NCBI RefSeq assembly: GCF_014844135.1
Contig: NZ_CP041403.1
Location: forward strand, 124,001 to 188,000
Origin: Arcobacter sp. FWKO B
Lineage (GTDB): Bacteria; Campylobacterota; Campylobacteria; Campylobacterales; Arcobacteraceae
Length of the DNA: 64,000 nucleotides
Reading direction: 5' to 3'
The notes beneath the pieces are model-generated. The model saw only the letters and a program-made list of their open reading frames with translations, ran no database searches and was not told where the DNA came from. Of the stretch, positions 2,821-7,839 are shown piece by piece (position 1 is the stretch's first letter; each line of letters begins with the position of its first letter). Position numbers and translations under genes: made by a program.

Positions 2821-2836
2821 TGCAATTAGTATTCCA
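2821..2836 (-). promoter_or_regulatory. sigma-54 (-24/-12) promoter of nifN operon
   Basis: On the minus strand the 16-mer TGGAATACTAATTGCA has GG and GC separated by exactly 10 bases and ends TTGCA, matching the RpoN consensus TGGCAC-N5-TTGCA. It sits 36 bases upstream of the nifN ATG. Three other copies with the same GGAA core precede plus-strand genes of this locus. A perfect 13-base palindrome TTGAAATTTTCAA lies about 52 bases upstream (2888-2900). No clear NifA site TGT-N10-ACA was found. Confidence 0.8.
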
Positions 2837-2925
2837 CGGATGTCACTTGTTTTATTTATTGAAATATATTCTATAATCAATTGTCGTTTGAAATTTTCAA
2901 GAACAAACTTATAAAAAATAAAAAT

Positions 2926-3195
2926 CTATTTAAAAAGTTGAGAATGTGAACCTAGTCTAATAAGTTCTAAAGTATCATCTATAATCCTATAAATTAATAG
3001 TAAATCACCACTTATGTGTAATTCTCTAAAATCACAATATTCACCCTGCAAAGGATGGTCTAAAGCTTCTTTTGGAAGTTCTTCTTCTTTTATTAAGCAT
3101 GATACATATAAAATAAATTTTGTATAGTGTTGTTCGCTTATATTTGACTTTGCCATATCTTTGACAAAGGTTTTATGTCGCTTAAGCTTTAGCAT
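2926..3195 (-). CDS. yafQ: YafQ-family mRNA interferase toxin
   Basis: An 89-residue RelE/ParE-superfamily toxin of the YafQ branch; YafQ cleaves mRNA in the ribosomal A site. The residues known for E. coli YafQ line up with a constant offset of three: His47, His60, Asp64, His84 and Phe88 here correspond to His50, His63, Asp67, His87 and Phe91. The Trp68 equivalent is Leu65. The C-terminal GSHSQLF and the middle DHPLQGEYCDFRELH are family hallmarks. It starts one base after the antitoxin stop codon (TAAATG). The module is lodged between two divergent nif promoters. Confidence 0.92.
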   Translation of the reverse strand: MLKLKRHKTFVKDMAKSNISEQHYTKFILYVSCLIKEEELPKEALDHPLQGEYCDFRELHISGDLLLIYRIIDDTLELIRLGSHSQLFK

Positions 3196-3465
3196 TTATT
3201 TTTTGCTTATTTCATTTGTTAGGTCTTTTAGTGTTACAGATTCCATATTGTGACCACTTCTAGCATCTTTAATAGCTTTTACAGTGGTTTTGTTTGGGAT
3301 TTTTATTTCAAATGGAATCCCTTTTTCTAAAACAGATTGAGTCAAAAAAATATTAAATGCTTCACTTAGCCCCAAGCCATACATTTTAAATATTTCTTGA
3401 GCTTTTTCTTTTGTAGTTGCATCAAGATATACATTTGTTCTAACTTTTTGTGATAGTGCAGTCAT
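3196..3465 (-). CDS. dinJ: DinJ/RelB-family antitoxin
   Basis: An 89-residue antitoxin of the DinJ family: an N-terminal ribbon-helix-helix DNA-binding region (VRTNVYLDATTKEKAQEIF, then GLGLSEAFNIFL) and a C-terminal toxin-binding tail. It precedes yafQ directly, the normal order. DinJ proteins neutralise YafQ and repress their own promoter. A nested inverted repeat that could be its operator covers the likely promoter at 3478-3513. Confidence 0.92.
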   Translation of the reverse strand: MTALSQKVRTNVYLDATTKEKAQEIFKMYGLGLSEAFNIFLTQSVLEKGIPFEIKIPNKTTVKAIKDARSGHNMESVTLKDLTNEISKK

Positions 3466-3477
3466 TACTTATCCTTT

Positions 3478-3513
3478 TTGACAATTTTAACACATATTGT
3501 GTGTTTTTGTCAA
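3478..3513 (-). promoter_or_regulatory. dinJ-yafQ promoter with nested operator palindromes
   Basis: An outer inverted repeat TTGACAA (3478-3484) / TTGTCAA (3507-3513) encloses an inner near-palindrome CACATATTGTG (3491-3501). On the minus strand the outer arm gives a -35 box TTGACA, followed after 17 bases by TTAAAA as the -10. An operator between and over the promoter boxes suits autorepression by the ribbon-helix-helix antitoxin. Binding is inferred, the symmetry is seen. Confidence 0.6.
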
Positions 3514-3523
3514 GGGTTTTCTA

Positions 3524-3539
3524 CGGAATACCTTTTGCA
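3524..3539 (+). promoter_or_regulatory. sigma-54 (-24/-12) promoter of the plus-strand nif accessory operon
   Basis: CGGAATACCTTTTGCA keeps the GG-N10-GC spacing and shares GGAATAC with the nifN promoter at 2836-2821. Transcription would start near 3551, about 110 bases before the first gene (the 31-codon reading frame at 3660). The long leader contains a heptamer-based inverted repeat. Confidence 0.75.
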
Positions 3540-3563
3540 TACTCTCTTATAAATATGTAGTTT

Positions 3564-3644
3564 TTAGGTGTTAGAGGGTAGGTTGCAAAGAAGAAAAATA
3601 CAAATTCTCTTACTACTCTCTACCATCTACAACCTACCACCTAA
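3564..3644. repeat. heptamer-built inverted repeat in leader, copy B
   Basis: The left arm consists of TTAGGTG, TTAGAGG, GTAGGTT, G (3564-3585). The right arm CAACCTACCACCTAA (3630-3644) is complementary to the left arm without its middle heptamer. The intervening sequence holds AAGAAGAAAAAT and CTCTCTACCATCTA, as in copy A at 62-140. In RNA the arms could pair just before the ribosome binding site of the downstream peptide gene. The arms differ by exactly one heptamer, which suggests slippage. Confidence 0.65.
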
Positions 3645-3659
3645 TAAAAGGAGTGCAAG

Positions 3660-3755
3660 ATGGAAGTATGGTATTCAATAGGATTAGCAACAGTTGCTTA
3701 TTTGGTTTTATTTGTTTCGTTGGCGGTTCACTCTGAAAAAAGAAGTGCGGAGTAG
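3660..3755 (+). CDS. 31-residue single-span membrane peptide, nif operon
   Basis: An ATG at 3660 with a strong ribosome binding site (AAGGAG, six bases upstream) opens a 31-codon frame: MEVWYSIGLATVAYLVLFVS, then LAVHSEKRSAE. Residues 4-23 form one hydrophobic segment and the C-terminus is charged. The aldo/keto reductase starts three bases after the stop and its ribosome binding site lies in the last codons, so the peptide is the first cistron of the operon driven by the sigma-54 promoter at 3524. I do not recognise the family. Small single-span proteins of this kind often assist a membrane enzyme, but here that is only a possibility. Confidence 0.7.
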   Translation: MEVWYSIGLATVAYLVLFVSLAVHSEKRSAE

Positions 3756-3758
3756 ATT

Positions 3759-4877
3759 ATGATAAAAGGTTTTGCAACAGCTGAAGGAACTCTTGAATAT
3801 GCACAAAAATTTCGTGATTCAAAAGAGTTTTATATCAAACATAATGATATAGTATTTTCAAAACTAGGTCTTGGAACTTTCAATAAAGAGCCATATAAAG
3901 AGGAAAACTATCTATTTAATTATGTGGACTCAGTAAAATCAGCATTGCAAAATGGTATCAATTTAATTGATACTGCGATAAATTATAGGTATCAACAAAG
4001 CGAAAAAGAAATAGGCTATATCTTGGGTGAAATGATAGAAAATGGTGAGATAAAAAGAGAAAATATCATCATAGCATCAAAAGGTGGTTTTATACCATTA
4101 GAATACCCTTTCCCAGACAATCCATATCATTGGATAAAAGACAATATGATTCTTCCTAATCTTTGCCAAGAGAGTGACATAGAGCTAGACCAGCACTGCA
4201 TAAGTGATAAATTTTTAGAATACTCACTCAATAAAAGCTTGGAAAATCTAGACTTAGAAACCATAGATATATATTTCTTGCACAATCCAGAAGTTCAGCT
4301 TGGTACAAAAACAAAAGAAGATTTACTAGAAGCTATCAAAAAAGCTTTTATAGTATTTGAAAAAGCGGTAATTGATGGCAAAATCAAAAGTTATGGGGTA
4401 GCTACTTGGAATGGCTTTATCAATGAGCAAGGTTTTATTGAGTATTTGAGTCTTAGTGATATTTATGGCGTAGCTTTGAGTGTAGCTGGAGATAATCACC
4501 ATTTTAAATATATTCAAGTACCATTCAATCTAGGAAAAACGCATATTTACACAATGCCAACACAAACATATCAAGGTGAAGAATACACAGTGGTAGAACT
4601 TTCTCATAAATTAGGGCTTGGAGTGATAAGCTCATCATCACTGCTACAGATGAATTTGTTCAAAAAATCTTTTAATACAAATGTGGGATATATTTTGGAT
4701 AAGGATATGAATCTCAAAAGCGATATTCAACTAGCTCTTCAGTTTGTGAGATCAACTCCAAATATCATTTCATCACTATTTGCAAGTAAAAACCCAGAAC
4801 ATATATTGCATAATCTTGAAATATCCAAAATCAAAGCAACACCTAAAAAGCTTTATGATTTGATGTATAAGGTGTAG
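3759..4877 (+). CDS. aldo/keto reductase family protein
   Basis: A 372-residue aldo/keto reductase with the TIM-barrel motifs: LGLGTF (36-41), NLIDTAINY (68-76) and the catalytic tetrad Asp71, Tyr76 or Tyr78, Lys108 (ASKGG) and His175 (FLHNP). Such enzymes reduce carbonyls with NADPH. The substrate is unknown. It is co-transcribed between the small membrane peptide and an aspartate-oxidase-like flavoprotein under a sigma-54 promoter, so it is probably expressed with nitrogenase, perhaps in redox or cofactor metabolism. The C-terminal third (about 230-372) is longer than in minimal members. Confidence 0.85.
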   Translation: MIKGFATAEGTLEYAQKFRDSKEFYIKHNDIVFSKLGLGTFNKEPYKEENYLFNYVDSVKSALQNGINLIDTAINYRYQQSEKEIGYILGEMIENGEIKRENIIIASKGGFIPLEYPFPDNPYHWIKDNMILPNLCQESDIELDQHCISDKFLEYSLNKSLENLDLETIDIYFLHNPEVQLGTKTKEDLLEAIKKAFIVFEKAVIDGKIKSYGVATWNGFINEQGFIEYLSLSDIYGVALSVAGDNHHFKYIQVPFNLGKTHIYTMPTQTYQGEEYTVVELSHKLGLGVISSSSLLQMNLFKKSFNTNVGYILDKDMNLKSDIQLALQFVRSTPNIISSLFASKNPEHILHNLEISKIKATPKKLYDLMYKV

Positions 4878-4880
4878 GCA

Positions 4881-6533
4881 ATGATTTATGATGTAATAGT
4901 AGTAGGAAGTGGAATATCTGGACTAATGTCAGCTATAGAAGCCAAAAAAAATGGTTCAAAAGTAGCAATAGTAACCAAAAATAATCCACTCAAATCAAAC
5001 TCATTTATGGCAAGTGGTGGGATAAATGCAGTATTATCAACCCAAAGCAAAGAGCTTGATTCTCATATCGAAGATACCGTCAAAGGCTCAAGAGGTTTAA
5101 GCGATGTCAAAACAATAGAATATATGTGTACTAATGCAAAAAGAATTATATACAAACTCAAAAGCTATGGTGTGCAGTTTGATAGTGATACAAACGATAA
5201 TCCAAAACAAAGACCTTTTGGTGGAGGAAGTATCCAAAGAACTTGTTTTGTGGGCGATAAAACAGGAAGTGCTATCATATCATCACTTTTGAAAGAGGCA
5301 AAACACTTAGGTATAGAATTCTTGACCAATAATTTTGCTCTTAGAATCATCACTCACCAAAACCAAGTATCAGCACTTGCAGTACTACGCAAAGCAGATA
5401 GTAATGTGGTTTTATACCCTACAAAAGCTATTATTTTAGCTGGTGGTGGATACGCAGGTATTTACAAAGGACATACTACAAATGCCCCTGATTGCACAGG
5501 AGATACTTTGGCATTGGCTCTAAAAGCAGGGATAAGAGTGGTTGATATGGAGTTTGTTCAGTTTCACCCAACAGGCTTTGAAAAAAGTGGCTATTTAGTG
5601 AGTGAAGCAGCAAGAGGTGAGGGTGGATACCTTGTCAATAGTGATGGTGAGAGATTTGTAGATGAGCTTGCCACTAGAGATGTGGTAGCTATAGAAATAT
5701 ACAAACAAATCAAAAACAAAAAAAGAGTATTTATAGACCTAAGACACCTAAGCAGTGAACAAATAGAACAAAGACTTCCAAGTCTATACAAATCAGCTCA
5801 TATTCAATCAGGTGTGGACATCAAAACAGAGCTTTTACCTATCAAACCAGTGGCACATTATACTATGGGTGGTATTGAGGCTAATATGGTGGATACTGAA
5901 ATATCAGGACTTTTTGTATGTGGTGAAAATAGTTTAAATATGATTCACGGTGCAAACCGCCTTGGTGGAAACTCTTTACTTGAGGGGGCAGTTTTTGGTG
6001 AACTTGCAGGTGTAAAAGCTTCAATGCTAGCTAAAAAAACAGATTTACTTCCAATAGATTACAATCAAGTTATACCTGATATTAGGATGATAGATAGATT
6101 GTTTGAAGGTGAAAGTACCAAAAACTTCAATGCCCTTCGTACAAGCCTTGGAAATGTGATGTTTGATAAAGTGGGAATAATAAGAGATTATAAGAGTTTG
6201 TATGAAGCACTAGATTATGTCAAATATCTAAGCACCCAATCAGCCCAACTTTACACAGTAGATAAATCCAAATCAAACAATGTAGAAGTAAGTTCTATTT
6301 TGGAGCTAAAAAATGCGTTGCTTATATCTGAAGCTGTGATACTTAGTGCAATAAAAAGGGAAGAATCAAGAGGAAGCCACCAAAGAGATGATTTCAAAGA
6401 ACTTGATACAAAGCTCAACAAACACATATCTATAAGACTCGTAGGTGGCAAACTCCTAAAAGAAGAGTTCAAGGTAAACAATGTGTTTTATAATATATTA
6501 CAAAAGGTTAGAGGGCTTATTATCAATAAATAA
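4881..6533 (+). CDS. FAD-dependent oxidoreductase, L-aspartate oxidase / fumarate reductase flavoprotein family
   Basis: A 550-residue flavoprotein of the NadB/SdhA/FrdA family. The FAD-binding start VVGSGISGLMSA is at residues 7-18. QFHPTGF (227-233) supplies the active-site His, SEAARGEGG (241-249) and LATRDVV (263-269) the substrate-binding Arg residues, and HGANRLGGNSL the C-terminal FAD contact. NadB oxidises aspartate to iminoaspartate for NAD synthesis, but no nadA or nadC is nearby. Three bases separate it from the aldo/keto reductase, and nifT follows under its own promoter. A role in nitrogenase-linked redox or nitrogen metabolism is therefore as likely as NAD synthesis. NadB-like is the safest call. 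Confidence 0.82.
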   Translation: MIYDVIVVGSGISGLMSAIEAKKNGSKVAIVTKNNPLKSNSFMASGGINAVLSTQSKELDSHIEDTVKGSRGLSDVKTIEYMCTNAKRIIYKLKSYGVQFDSDTNDNPKQRPFGGGSIQRTCFVGDKTGSAIISSLLKEAKHLGIEFLTNNFALRIITHQNQVSALAVLRKADSNVVLYPTKAIILAGGGYAGIYKGHTTNAPDCTGDTLALALKAGIRVVDMEFVQFHPTGFEKSGYLVSEAARGEGGYLVNSDGERFVDELATRDVVAIEIYKQIKNKKRVFIDLRHLSSEQIEQRLPSLYKSAHIQSGVDIKTELLPIKPVAHYTMGGIEANMVDTEISGLFVCGENSLNMIHGANRLGGNSLLEGAVFGELAGVKASMLAKKTDLLPIDYNQVIPDIRMIDRLFEGESTKNFNALRTSLGNVMFDKVGIIRDYKSLYEALDYVKYLSTQSAQLYTVDKSKSNNVEVSSILELKNALLISEAVILSAIKREESRGSHQRDDFKELDTKLNKHISIRLVGGKLLKEEFKVNNVFYNILQKVRGLIINK

Positions 6534-6539
6534 CCCAAG

Positions 6540-6555
6540 CGGAATGAAACTTGCA
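6540..6555 (+). promoter_or_regulatory. sigma-54 (-24/-12) promoter of nifT
   Basis: CGGAATGAAACTTGCA has GG-N10-GC spacing and a TTGCA -12 element. It lies just after the preceding stop codon and 32 bases before the nifT ATG, implying a leader of about 20 bases. Confidence 0.75.
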
Positions 6556-6587
6556 TTAAGTTTAAAAACCAATACAAAGAAGATAAA

Positions 6588-6794
6588 ATGGCAAAAGTAA
6601 TGTTAAGAGAAAATGAAGGCAAAATCTACTTTTATATAGCAAAAAAAGATATGGAAGAGATAATCGATACTATAGAGTTTGAGTCTGATGAAAAATGGGG
6701 TGGCGAAGTAGAGCTTAGCAACGGTGAGAGCTGGTGGATAGAGCCAGGGGCAAAAAATCTTCCAAAAGAGGCAGTGTGCAAAAAGCTTTCATAA
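6588..6794 (+). CDS. nifT: NifT/FixU family protein
   Basis: A 68-residue member of the small NifT/FixU family, found in most nif clusters, with no essential function demonstrated. The matching pattern is VMLRENEGKIYFYIAKKDME, then W-GG-V-L-NG near residues 30-46, followed by the acidic/hydrophobic tail. It has its own sigma-54 promoter immediately upstream. The next gene (GNAT) begins inside its last codons in another frame. Confidence 0.85.
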   Translation: MAKVMLRENEGKIYFYIAKKDMEEIIDTIEFESDEKWGGEVELSNGESWWIEPGAKNLPKEAVCKKLS

Positions 6795-7228
6795 AAAAAG
6801 CAACATACAAAGAGATACCTTATATTGCCGAATTATTAGTAGAATTATTTTCGATAGAAAAAGATTTTACTATAGATAAACATCGTCATATAAATGCACT
6901 AAAAATACTCCTTGATGAGCCTTTGGCTATAGCTATAGTTGCAGTAATTGATGAACAAATAGTTGGCTTTGCATCTATGCAAAGAGTCATATCTACAGCA
7001 ACAGGTGGATATAGTGGGCTGATTGAAGATGTGATTATCAAAAATGATTTCAGGTCACACGGTATCGGAAATATGCTTATTGATAGGTTGATTAATGAAG
7101 CAAAAAAACTCTCATACAAAAGAGTTCAACTCCTATGTGATATGTCCAACCACAACGCCCAACAATTCTACTTCAAAAAATCTTTTGTCCAAAGTTCTAT
7201 GCAAGGATATTATTTAACCCTCCCATAA
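6776..7228 (+). CDS. GNAT family N-acetyltransferase
   Basis: About 150 residues with a complete GNAT fold: an N-terminal KKATYKEIPYIAELLVELF, a central strand VGFASMQRV and the acetyl-CoA loop FRSHGIGNMLIDRLINEA (the RxxGxG motif), ending in the FYFKKSF segment. The frame is open upstream inside nifT, where an ATG at 6734 exists. The domain, however, begins right at the end of nifT, and a GTG at 6776 preceded by AAGAGG fits better, giving a 19-base overlap with nifT and probable coupling. GNAT proteins recur in nif clusters next to nifT; their acceptor is unknown. Confidence 0.8.
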   Translation: MQKAFIKKATYKEIPYIAELLVELFSIEKDFTIDKHRHINALKILLDEPLAIAIVAVIDEQIVGFASMQRVISTATGGYSGLIEDVIIKNDFRSHGIGNMLIDRLINEAKKLSYKRVQLLCDMSNHNAQQFYFKKSFVQSSMQGYYLTLP

Positions 7229-7243
7229 GGAACACTTATTGCA
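7228..7243 (+). promoter_or_regulatory. sigma-54 (-24/-12) promoter of the unknown 187-residue protein
   Basis: AGGAACACTTATTGCA has GG-N10-GC spacing and TTGCA, and matches the GGAA-x-AC core of the nifN and peptide-operon promoters. It starts at the last base of the GNAT stop codon and is 32 bases upstream of the ATG at 7276. Confidence 0.75.
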
Positions 7244-7275: not shown

Positions 7276-7839
7276 ATGTCAGCAGTATTAGGATACATAA
7301 AAGAAAATAGCCTTGATTGGCAACCATCATTCAACGGTGAGTTAAAAGATGGTCGTTTTGGATACAGAGGAAGCTTGATAGTAGAAGCTGGAAAACAATT
7401 AAGCCCAGATAGAGTATTACCTCCAAAAATCCAAGCAAAACAAGTTATTATGGTTACAAATGATAAAACGATAGAGTTTTTCGCATGTGAGCTAGAGTCT
7501 TTTGAACATTTTATTCCAATGTTTGAAAAATACAAAGATTTTTTTTCAAAAGATAGCAAAAATCTTCTTTTTGTGATAGATTTAAATGAAAGTGGAACTT
7601 TTGAATATGAAGGAATTACTTTCAACGCTTTCGTACTTGATGAAAGTTCAGTTTGGAATGAAACACTAGATATGCTAAACCTTGAAAAAGGTGACCTCAA
7701 AAAAGCATCTCCATCAGAAAAAATCGAAGCAGTTTATGACGAATCACAAACAAGTGACCTATCAGCAAAATCAAGAACTTATGATGAAATGATGGCACTA
7801 AAAAGCAATACTAAAAAAGTACTAATGGGAGCGGTTTAA
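7276..7839 (+). CDS. unknown protein in its own sigma-54 (nif) transcription unit
   Basis: A 187-residue soluble protein without signal peptide, membrane segment or cysteine cluster. I do not recognise the family. It is acidic/lysine-rich with an aromatic N-terminal half (YIKENSLDWQPSFNGELKDG) and a hydrophilic, probably disordered tail from about residue 140. The ATG has an AAGGAT ribosome binding site. It stands alone between a sigma-54 promoter and an intrinsic terminator that overlaps its stop codon, so it is a single-gene unit of the inferred nif regulon. The function is open. Confidence 0.85.
   Translation: MSAVLGYIKENSLDWQPSFNGELKDGRFGYRGSLIVEAGKQLSPDRVLPPKIQAKQVIMVTNDKTIEFFACELESFEHFIPMFEKYKDFFSKDSKNLLFVIDLNESGTFEYEGITFNAFVLDESSVWNETLDMLNLEKGDLKKASPSEKIEAVYDESQTSDLSAKSRTYDEMMALKSNTKKVLMGAV

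Follow-up and report, generated by a model that had tools for sequence, protein, structure and literature searches.

Few natural activators of sigma-54 are known that do not bind DNA, FlgR and CtcC among them, and a NifA engineered to lack its DNA-binding domain can activate from solution. Described here is a set of probable nif promoters in Arcobacter sp. FWKO B, together with a natural NifA that has no C-terminal helix-turn-helix (HTH) and that probably activates these promoters without an enhancer, as part of a self-contained sigma-54 system apparently dedicated to nif. The promoters were recognized in a stretch of 64,000 nucleotides (the window; C1:124001-188000 of a single-contig genome of 2.24 Mb), and positions given without a prefix are those of the window.

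The closest described parallels are FlgR of Helicobacter pylori, which has no DNA-binding domain and is reported to activate independently of an enhancer (PMC9696931), and CtcC of Chlamydia, a second activator without such a domain (PMC7482065). Both are type Ic activators, and a change of the fifth residue of the GAFTGA loop from G to D has been described for epsilon FlgR (PMC3162934, PMC9696931, PMC7482065). The NifA of FWKO B resembles FlgR and CtcC in lacking a DNA-binding domain and in being the sole, or nearly the sole, sigma-54 activator of its genome, and it resembles epsilon FlgR in carrying GAFTDA; it differs in being a GAF-type NifA for nitrogen fixation, whereas the input domains of FlgR and CtcC are different and their roles lie in flagella or development. 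With proteobacterial NifA (TIGR01817) it shares the GAF and AAA+ architecture, a place in the nif cluster and -24/-12 promoters before nif genes; unlike that family, it lacks the HTH, has GAFTDA for GAFTGA, would work with promoters that have no recognizable upstream activator sequence (UAS), and scores below the family cut-off.

Probable sigma-54 promoters across the nif cluster

A sequence-only reading of the window had picked out four 16-nucleotide sites as sigma-54 promoters, at 2836-2821 on the minus strand (TGGAATACTAATTGCA) and, on the plus strand, at 3524-3539 (CGGAATACCTTTTGCA), 6540-6555 (CGGAATGAAACTTGCA) and 7228-7243 (AGGAACACTTATTGCA). All four are present as described, each with GG-N10-GC, GGAA and TTGCA, three of them continuing as GGAAYAC, and all four are intergenic, the last beginning on the final base of the stop codon of the preceding GNAT gene. 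They precede, respectively, the nifN run (50 nt from the first -24 G to the first ATG of nifN, at 2785), an operon of a microprotein, an aldo/keto reductase (AKR) and an FrdA-like flavoprotein, the nifT-GNAT pair (47 nt to the ATG) and a gene for a protein of 187 amino acids (aa; 47 nt to the ATG). Their -24/-12 consensus, their place upstream of genes and the presence of both a sigma-54 and a competent activator in the genome give the four sites the look of nif sigma-54 promoters.

Bare GG-N10-GC is common, with 186 matches in the window, which lends some color to the idea that the sites are chance matches within AT-rich intergenic DNA. That idea is nonetheless exceedingly improbable, given that the extended core is enriched and intergenic, lies mostly 47-54 nt before start codons and is found before the same genes in relatives. 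In the window GGAAN6TTGCA occurs five times against an expectation of 0.81, and none of 100 dinucleotide shuffles gave five; the five matches are the four sites and one at 1661-1675 on the minus strand inside nifN, which is regarded as chance.

Genome-wide, the pattern GGAAYRN5TGCA has 25 matches, and its reversed control has none. Ten of the matches lie in the 73 kb of C1:59-132 kb, where nine are intergenic, each standing before a gene or operon of the nif cluster: nifV, nifH, a gene for a 129-aa NifX-like protein (PF02579), a 153-aa gene upstream of ferredoxin-nifB-nifE, nifB itself (in the ATGC form), nifN, the microprotein-AKR-FrdA operon, nifT-GNAT and the 187-aa gene. The distance of these sites to the start codon is mostly 47-54 nt, nifN included if the ATG at 2785 is used. 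Elsewhere, 13 of the 15 matches fall within genes and two are intergenic, one of them just 10 nt before a start codon. The difference in intergenic placement (Fisher p=2.4e-4) and the concentration of nine of the 11 intergenic matches in 3% of the genome (p=2e-12) are somewhat optimistic as p-values, because the pattern was chosen after the sites had been seen. The scan supports the earlier reading in that sites cluster before nifH, nifB and other nif genes. GGAAAAGGATTTGC is repeated many times among the genome matches (for example in L020 and L027); the two copies that were read, at 844921 and 362257, lie within large open reading frames (ORFs) and probably belong to a repeated gene segment.

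While the sites do appear to be the nif promoters of this organism, their description as an accessory regulon was too narrow, the regulon being nif at large (nifH, nifB, nifV and others) and probably including rpoN and the nifA run. A link to flagellar genes found no support: none of the classified matches was noticed to stand before a flagellar gene, which is expected for Arcobacter. Nor is the GGAA -24 element lineage-specific: mapping of start sites in Campylobacter jejuni gave the sigma-54 consensus GGaa-N6-tTGCTt (PMC3847290), and the same core stands before nif genes in many of the Campylobacterota loci examined. The promoters of FWKO B share with those of C. jejuni the GGAA -24 element and the TTGC -12 element (PMC3847290), and differ from them in preceding nif rather than flagellar genes and in having A, not T, after TGC.

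A NifA without a helix-turn-helix

The nifA gene (C1:101940-103298) encodes 452 aa that align with positions 3-439 of the 534 of the TIGR01817 profile and comprise a GAF domain (PF01590), a Sigma54_activat domain (PF00158, 262 bits) and the AAA lid, right after which the gene stops. A domain search found no HTH_8 in this protein and did find one in the NifA of a relative; in HTH-bearing relatives nifA extends some 60-100 codons more, into a Fis-type HTH. The ATPase motifs are intact (Walker A GETGTGKE, Walker B FLDEIGD), and the GAFTDA loop is common to every intact Campylobacterota NifA read. A sequencing error at the stop is not evident: the short form recurs in a separate assembly (L036), the following gene begins immediately, and no HTH was found in the other reading frames. 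The protein scores 486 bits, short of the curated TIGR01817 cut-off of 528.85, and is linked to full-length NifA by shared ancestry and nif synteny. The suggestion that the activator may differ was therefore right insofar as the DNA-binding domain is missing and wrong insofar as the activator is still a NifA homologue.

The HTH is absent from 11 Campylobacterota NifAs, which occupy four positions in the tree: the window genome with L036 and L037; L046, L052 and L053; L041 and L043; and L048, L050 and L080. A careful tree likewise needs four changes and rejects a single HTH-less clade (p=0.0066), several of its deeper branches being weak. The HTH has apparently been lost several times, and horizontal transfer or regain may provide alternative histories of the pattern. 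In another genus, g16 (G126, G128 and G129), the tail of NifA is kept and its recognition helix is altered (EQIN/DEIH for RQIG). The searches made of open-access PMC literature returned no natural NifA without an HTH.

Only two strong matches to the sigma-54 activator domain occur in the genome, NifA and a protein designated NifA2, the latter being the only other PF00158 match at E<=1e-12 and having degenerate motifs; NifA is thus the sole competent activator. The same is seen more widely, NifA being the only activator at E<=1e-12 in all eight HTH-less genomes tested outside the clade of the window genome.

NifA2 (C1:241330-242853; L015:5330-6853), encoded beside moeA, combines a GAF domain, an AAA domain without a GAFTGA loop or normal Walker A and B motifs, and an intact Fis-type HTH (HTH_8). 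The defects of the two proteins are complementary, and the recognition helix of NifA2, RQIGYKIKKY, is that of HTH-bearing Arcobacteraceae NifAs, so that one might picture a split NifA in the genus UBA6211, in which the ATPase of NifA and the HTH of a dead-ATPase tether would meet in a mixed oligomer on DNA. Such an arrangement is decidedly unlikely. Orthologues of NifA2 were found in the genus only, with none detected in HTH-less genomes outside it, and the nifH promoters of the UBA6211 clade have no upstream element in common. Moreover, NifA2 is kept in two genomes of the same genus (G148 and G149) where rpoN, nifH and NifA were undetected, which makes an obligate partnership with NifA unlikely; a sigma-54-independent regulator is the more likely role.

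A sigma-54 apparently dedicated to nif

The gene for sigma-54 itself, rpoN (C1:120813-122075; TIGR02395, above cut-off), lies on the strand of the nifN run, at the end of a same-strand series nifN-nifX-DUF269-nifF-PII-like-nifW-nifZ-two ferredoxins-rpoN that has gaps of at most 89 nt and continues beyond the window. If this run is one operon, the site at 2821-2836 would drive sigma-54.

Arcobacter has been reported to lack RpoN and FlgRS for its flagella (PMC2147049, PMC9321776). Among 104 genomes of the family, nifH was found in 30 and rpoN in 33, rpoN being present in all 30 genomes with nifH and in three of the 74 without it (p=5e-23). Of these three, G066 is incomplete and does have nifA, the copy in G095 is short and located on a small contig, and G096 has a 61-aa fragment. 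Because rpoN occurs almost only with nif, and Arcobacter flagella are reported to do without RpoN and FlgRS, sigma-54 appears to be nif-dedicated in this family. The published view that Arcobacter lacks RpoN is qualified accordingly for the nifH-bearing genomes. The genus UBA6211 has been placed in Arcobacteraceae, with Arcobacter sp. FWKO B as its one cultured member (PMC11265409); the same-genus genome G147 and the genome of L036 have nifA and nifH coordinates in common and belong to this genus.

The absence of detectable nifH and rpoN from two genomes of the same genus could also be taken to mean that the circuit is decaying, with an HTH-less NifA that activates poorly and nif genes on their way out. 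This is very improbable, however, as HTH-less NifAs keep their AAA+ motifs and are 90-93% identical within the clade, the nif genes are open, and the nifH promoters of the clade have the TTGC form.

Upstream DNA and the enhancer question

The remark that no obvious NifA enhancer accompanies these promoters holds, since TGT-N10-ACA occurs within 300 nt upstream of only one of the eight TTGC-type nif promoters of FWKO B, at -197; a NifA without a DNA-binding domain is the likely explanation of the missing enhancer. This canonical UAS was rejected as a candidate more generally, having no sensible position at most promoters of HTH-less and HTH-bearing groups alike, as were dyads shared across the nif promoters of each genome, none of which rose above shuffles.

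Upstream elements do occur in the family. In most HTH-bearing Arcobacteraceae a block some 125 nt upstream of nifH is conserved, and in pairwise comparisons within the HTH-bearing core the nifH upstream regions reach a median z of 4.35, with 53% of pairs above 4. An enhancer contacted by a different DNA-binding protein, or by NifA in an unrecognized way, so that upstream DNA would still be needed, therefore deserves consideration, although it seems unlikely. The block is absent from the HTH-less UBA6211 clade, where z exceeds 4 in none of 69 pairs with the HTH-bearing core and in none of the six pairs within the clade, and also from genus g16 with its altered recognition helix (0/69 pairs with the core). 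A simple nifH upstream motif, defined after the alignment had been seen, behaves in the same way, occurring in 18 of 23 HTH-bearing core genomes and in none of three altered-helix, three UBA6211-clade and seven other HTH-less genomes. The lack of a conserved block in the UBA6211 clade is indirect evidence that its NifA may be independent of enhancers in the manner of FlgR.

The core of the nifH promoter varies as well. In HTH-bearing genomes of the family nifH has a weak -12 element, with TTGC in one of 28, as against 30 of 31 other nif promoters in six HTH-bearing clusters (p=1.6e-14), whereas in the UBA6211 clade nifH has TTGC in three of three. This fits a pattern in which an enhancer accompanies a weak core and a strong core does without one, but in HTH-less genomes outside the clade nifH mostly retains ATGC.

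Enhancer-independent activation by the HTH-less NifA probably best describes this system. Sigma-54 RNA polymerase would occupy strong GGAAYR-N5-TGCA promoters in the closed-complex state, and NifA, which comprises nothing but a GAF sensor and a complete AAA+ ATPase, would open them from solution, with no docking at an upstream enhancer. Specificity would follow because sigma-54 has (almost) only nif promoters to serve and because the genome encodes no competent activator of it other than NifA. The circuit probably reinforces itself, since rpoN is the last gene of the run that starts at the 2821-2836 site and a putative promoter at C1:105306 lies upstream of nifA.

Several observations weigh against this reading. 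The same genome also encodes NifA2, which is NifA-like and has kept its HTH intact; one HTH-less metagenome-assembled genome (G002) has two copies of rpoN and, besides its NifA, an FlgR-like activator; and another such genome (G015) gave no rpoN match. The nifH motif is also missing from both HTH-bearing genomes of genus g8 (G090 and G092), no dyad recurs across the nif promoters of HTH-bearing relatives, and the upstream comparison among HTH-less genomes comprises few pairs (20), one of which, G011-G038, is strongly conserved. Finally, the putative enhancer is seen only at nifH, and binding of NifA to the block is hypothetical. As a separate matter, G002, the genome of L037, is labelled Helicobacter cetorum and is possibly mixed or misnamed.

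Genes around the promoters

On the minus strand, the run begins with nifN (1499-2812, with a probable ATG start at 2785; TIGR01285, 356.6 bits, above cut-off), nifX (1089-1502; TIGR02663, above cut-off), a NifX-associated DUF269 protein (646-1089; TIGR02935, above cut-off; PF03270) and a nifF-like flavodoxin (138-653; TIGR01752, above cut-off). Between the nifN and AKR promoters, at 2926-3465, lie genes for a YafQ-like toxin and a RelB-like antitoxin.

On the plus strand, the first ORF after the 3524 promoter encodes a microprotein of 31 aa with a single membrane span (3660-3755), followed by the aldo/keto reductase of the nif cluster (3759-4877; PF00248) and a flavoprotein like fumarate reductase or L-aspartate oxidase (4881-6533; TIGR01812, below cut-off; PF00890). 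Small ORFs of this kind stand before the AKR gene in G100, G103, G126, G131, L039, L040, L044, L048, L049 and L050, and the gene order AKR-FrdA-nifT is conserved in relatives. Then come nifT (6588-6794; TIGR02934, 64.7 bits against a cut-off of 41), an overlapping GNAT acetyltransferase (6782-7228; PF00583) and the protein of 187 aa (7276-7839), a member of a conserved, uncharacterized nif-linked family, which has an LDESSVWNE motif and homologues 42-63% identical. The 187-aa protein has no Pfam or NCBIfam match. Its single-sequence model was poor, and a fold search with the confident alignment-based model (predicted local distance difference test, pLDDT, 89.7) gave no clear PDB match, the best Foldseek E being 0.013 and no Z exceeding 3.5. 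Elsewhere in the nif region, two intergenic gaps hold an inverted repeat pair of 42 nt, 98% complementary (L013:430-471 and L013:10897-10938).

Implications

Close relatives in which the HTH was apparently lost more than once offer a natural experiment on the conditions under which an enhancer can be dispensed with; a single regulon and a single activator for sigma-54 may perhaps be such conditions. A self-contained cassette of sigma-54, NifA and nif genes, if that is what this cluster is, would be attractive for transferring nitrogen fixation from one host to another.

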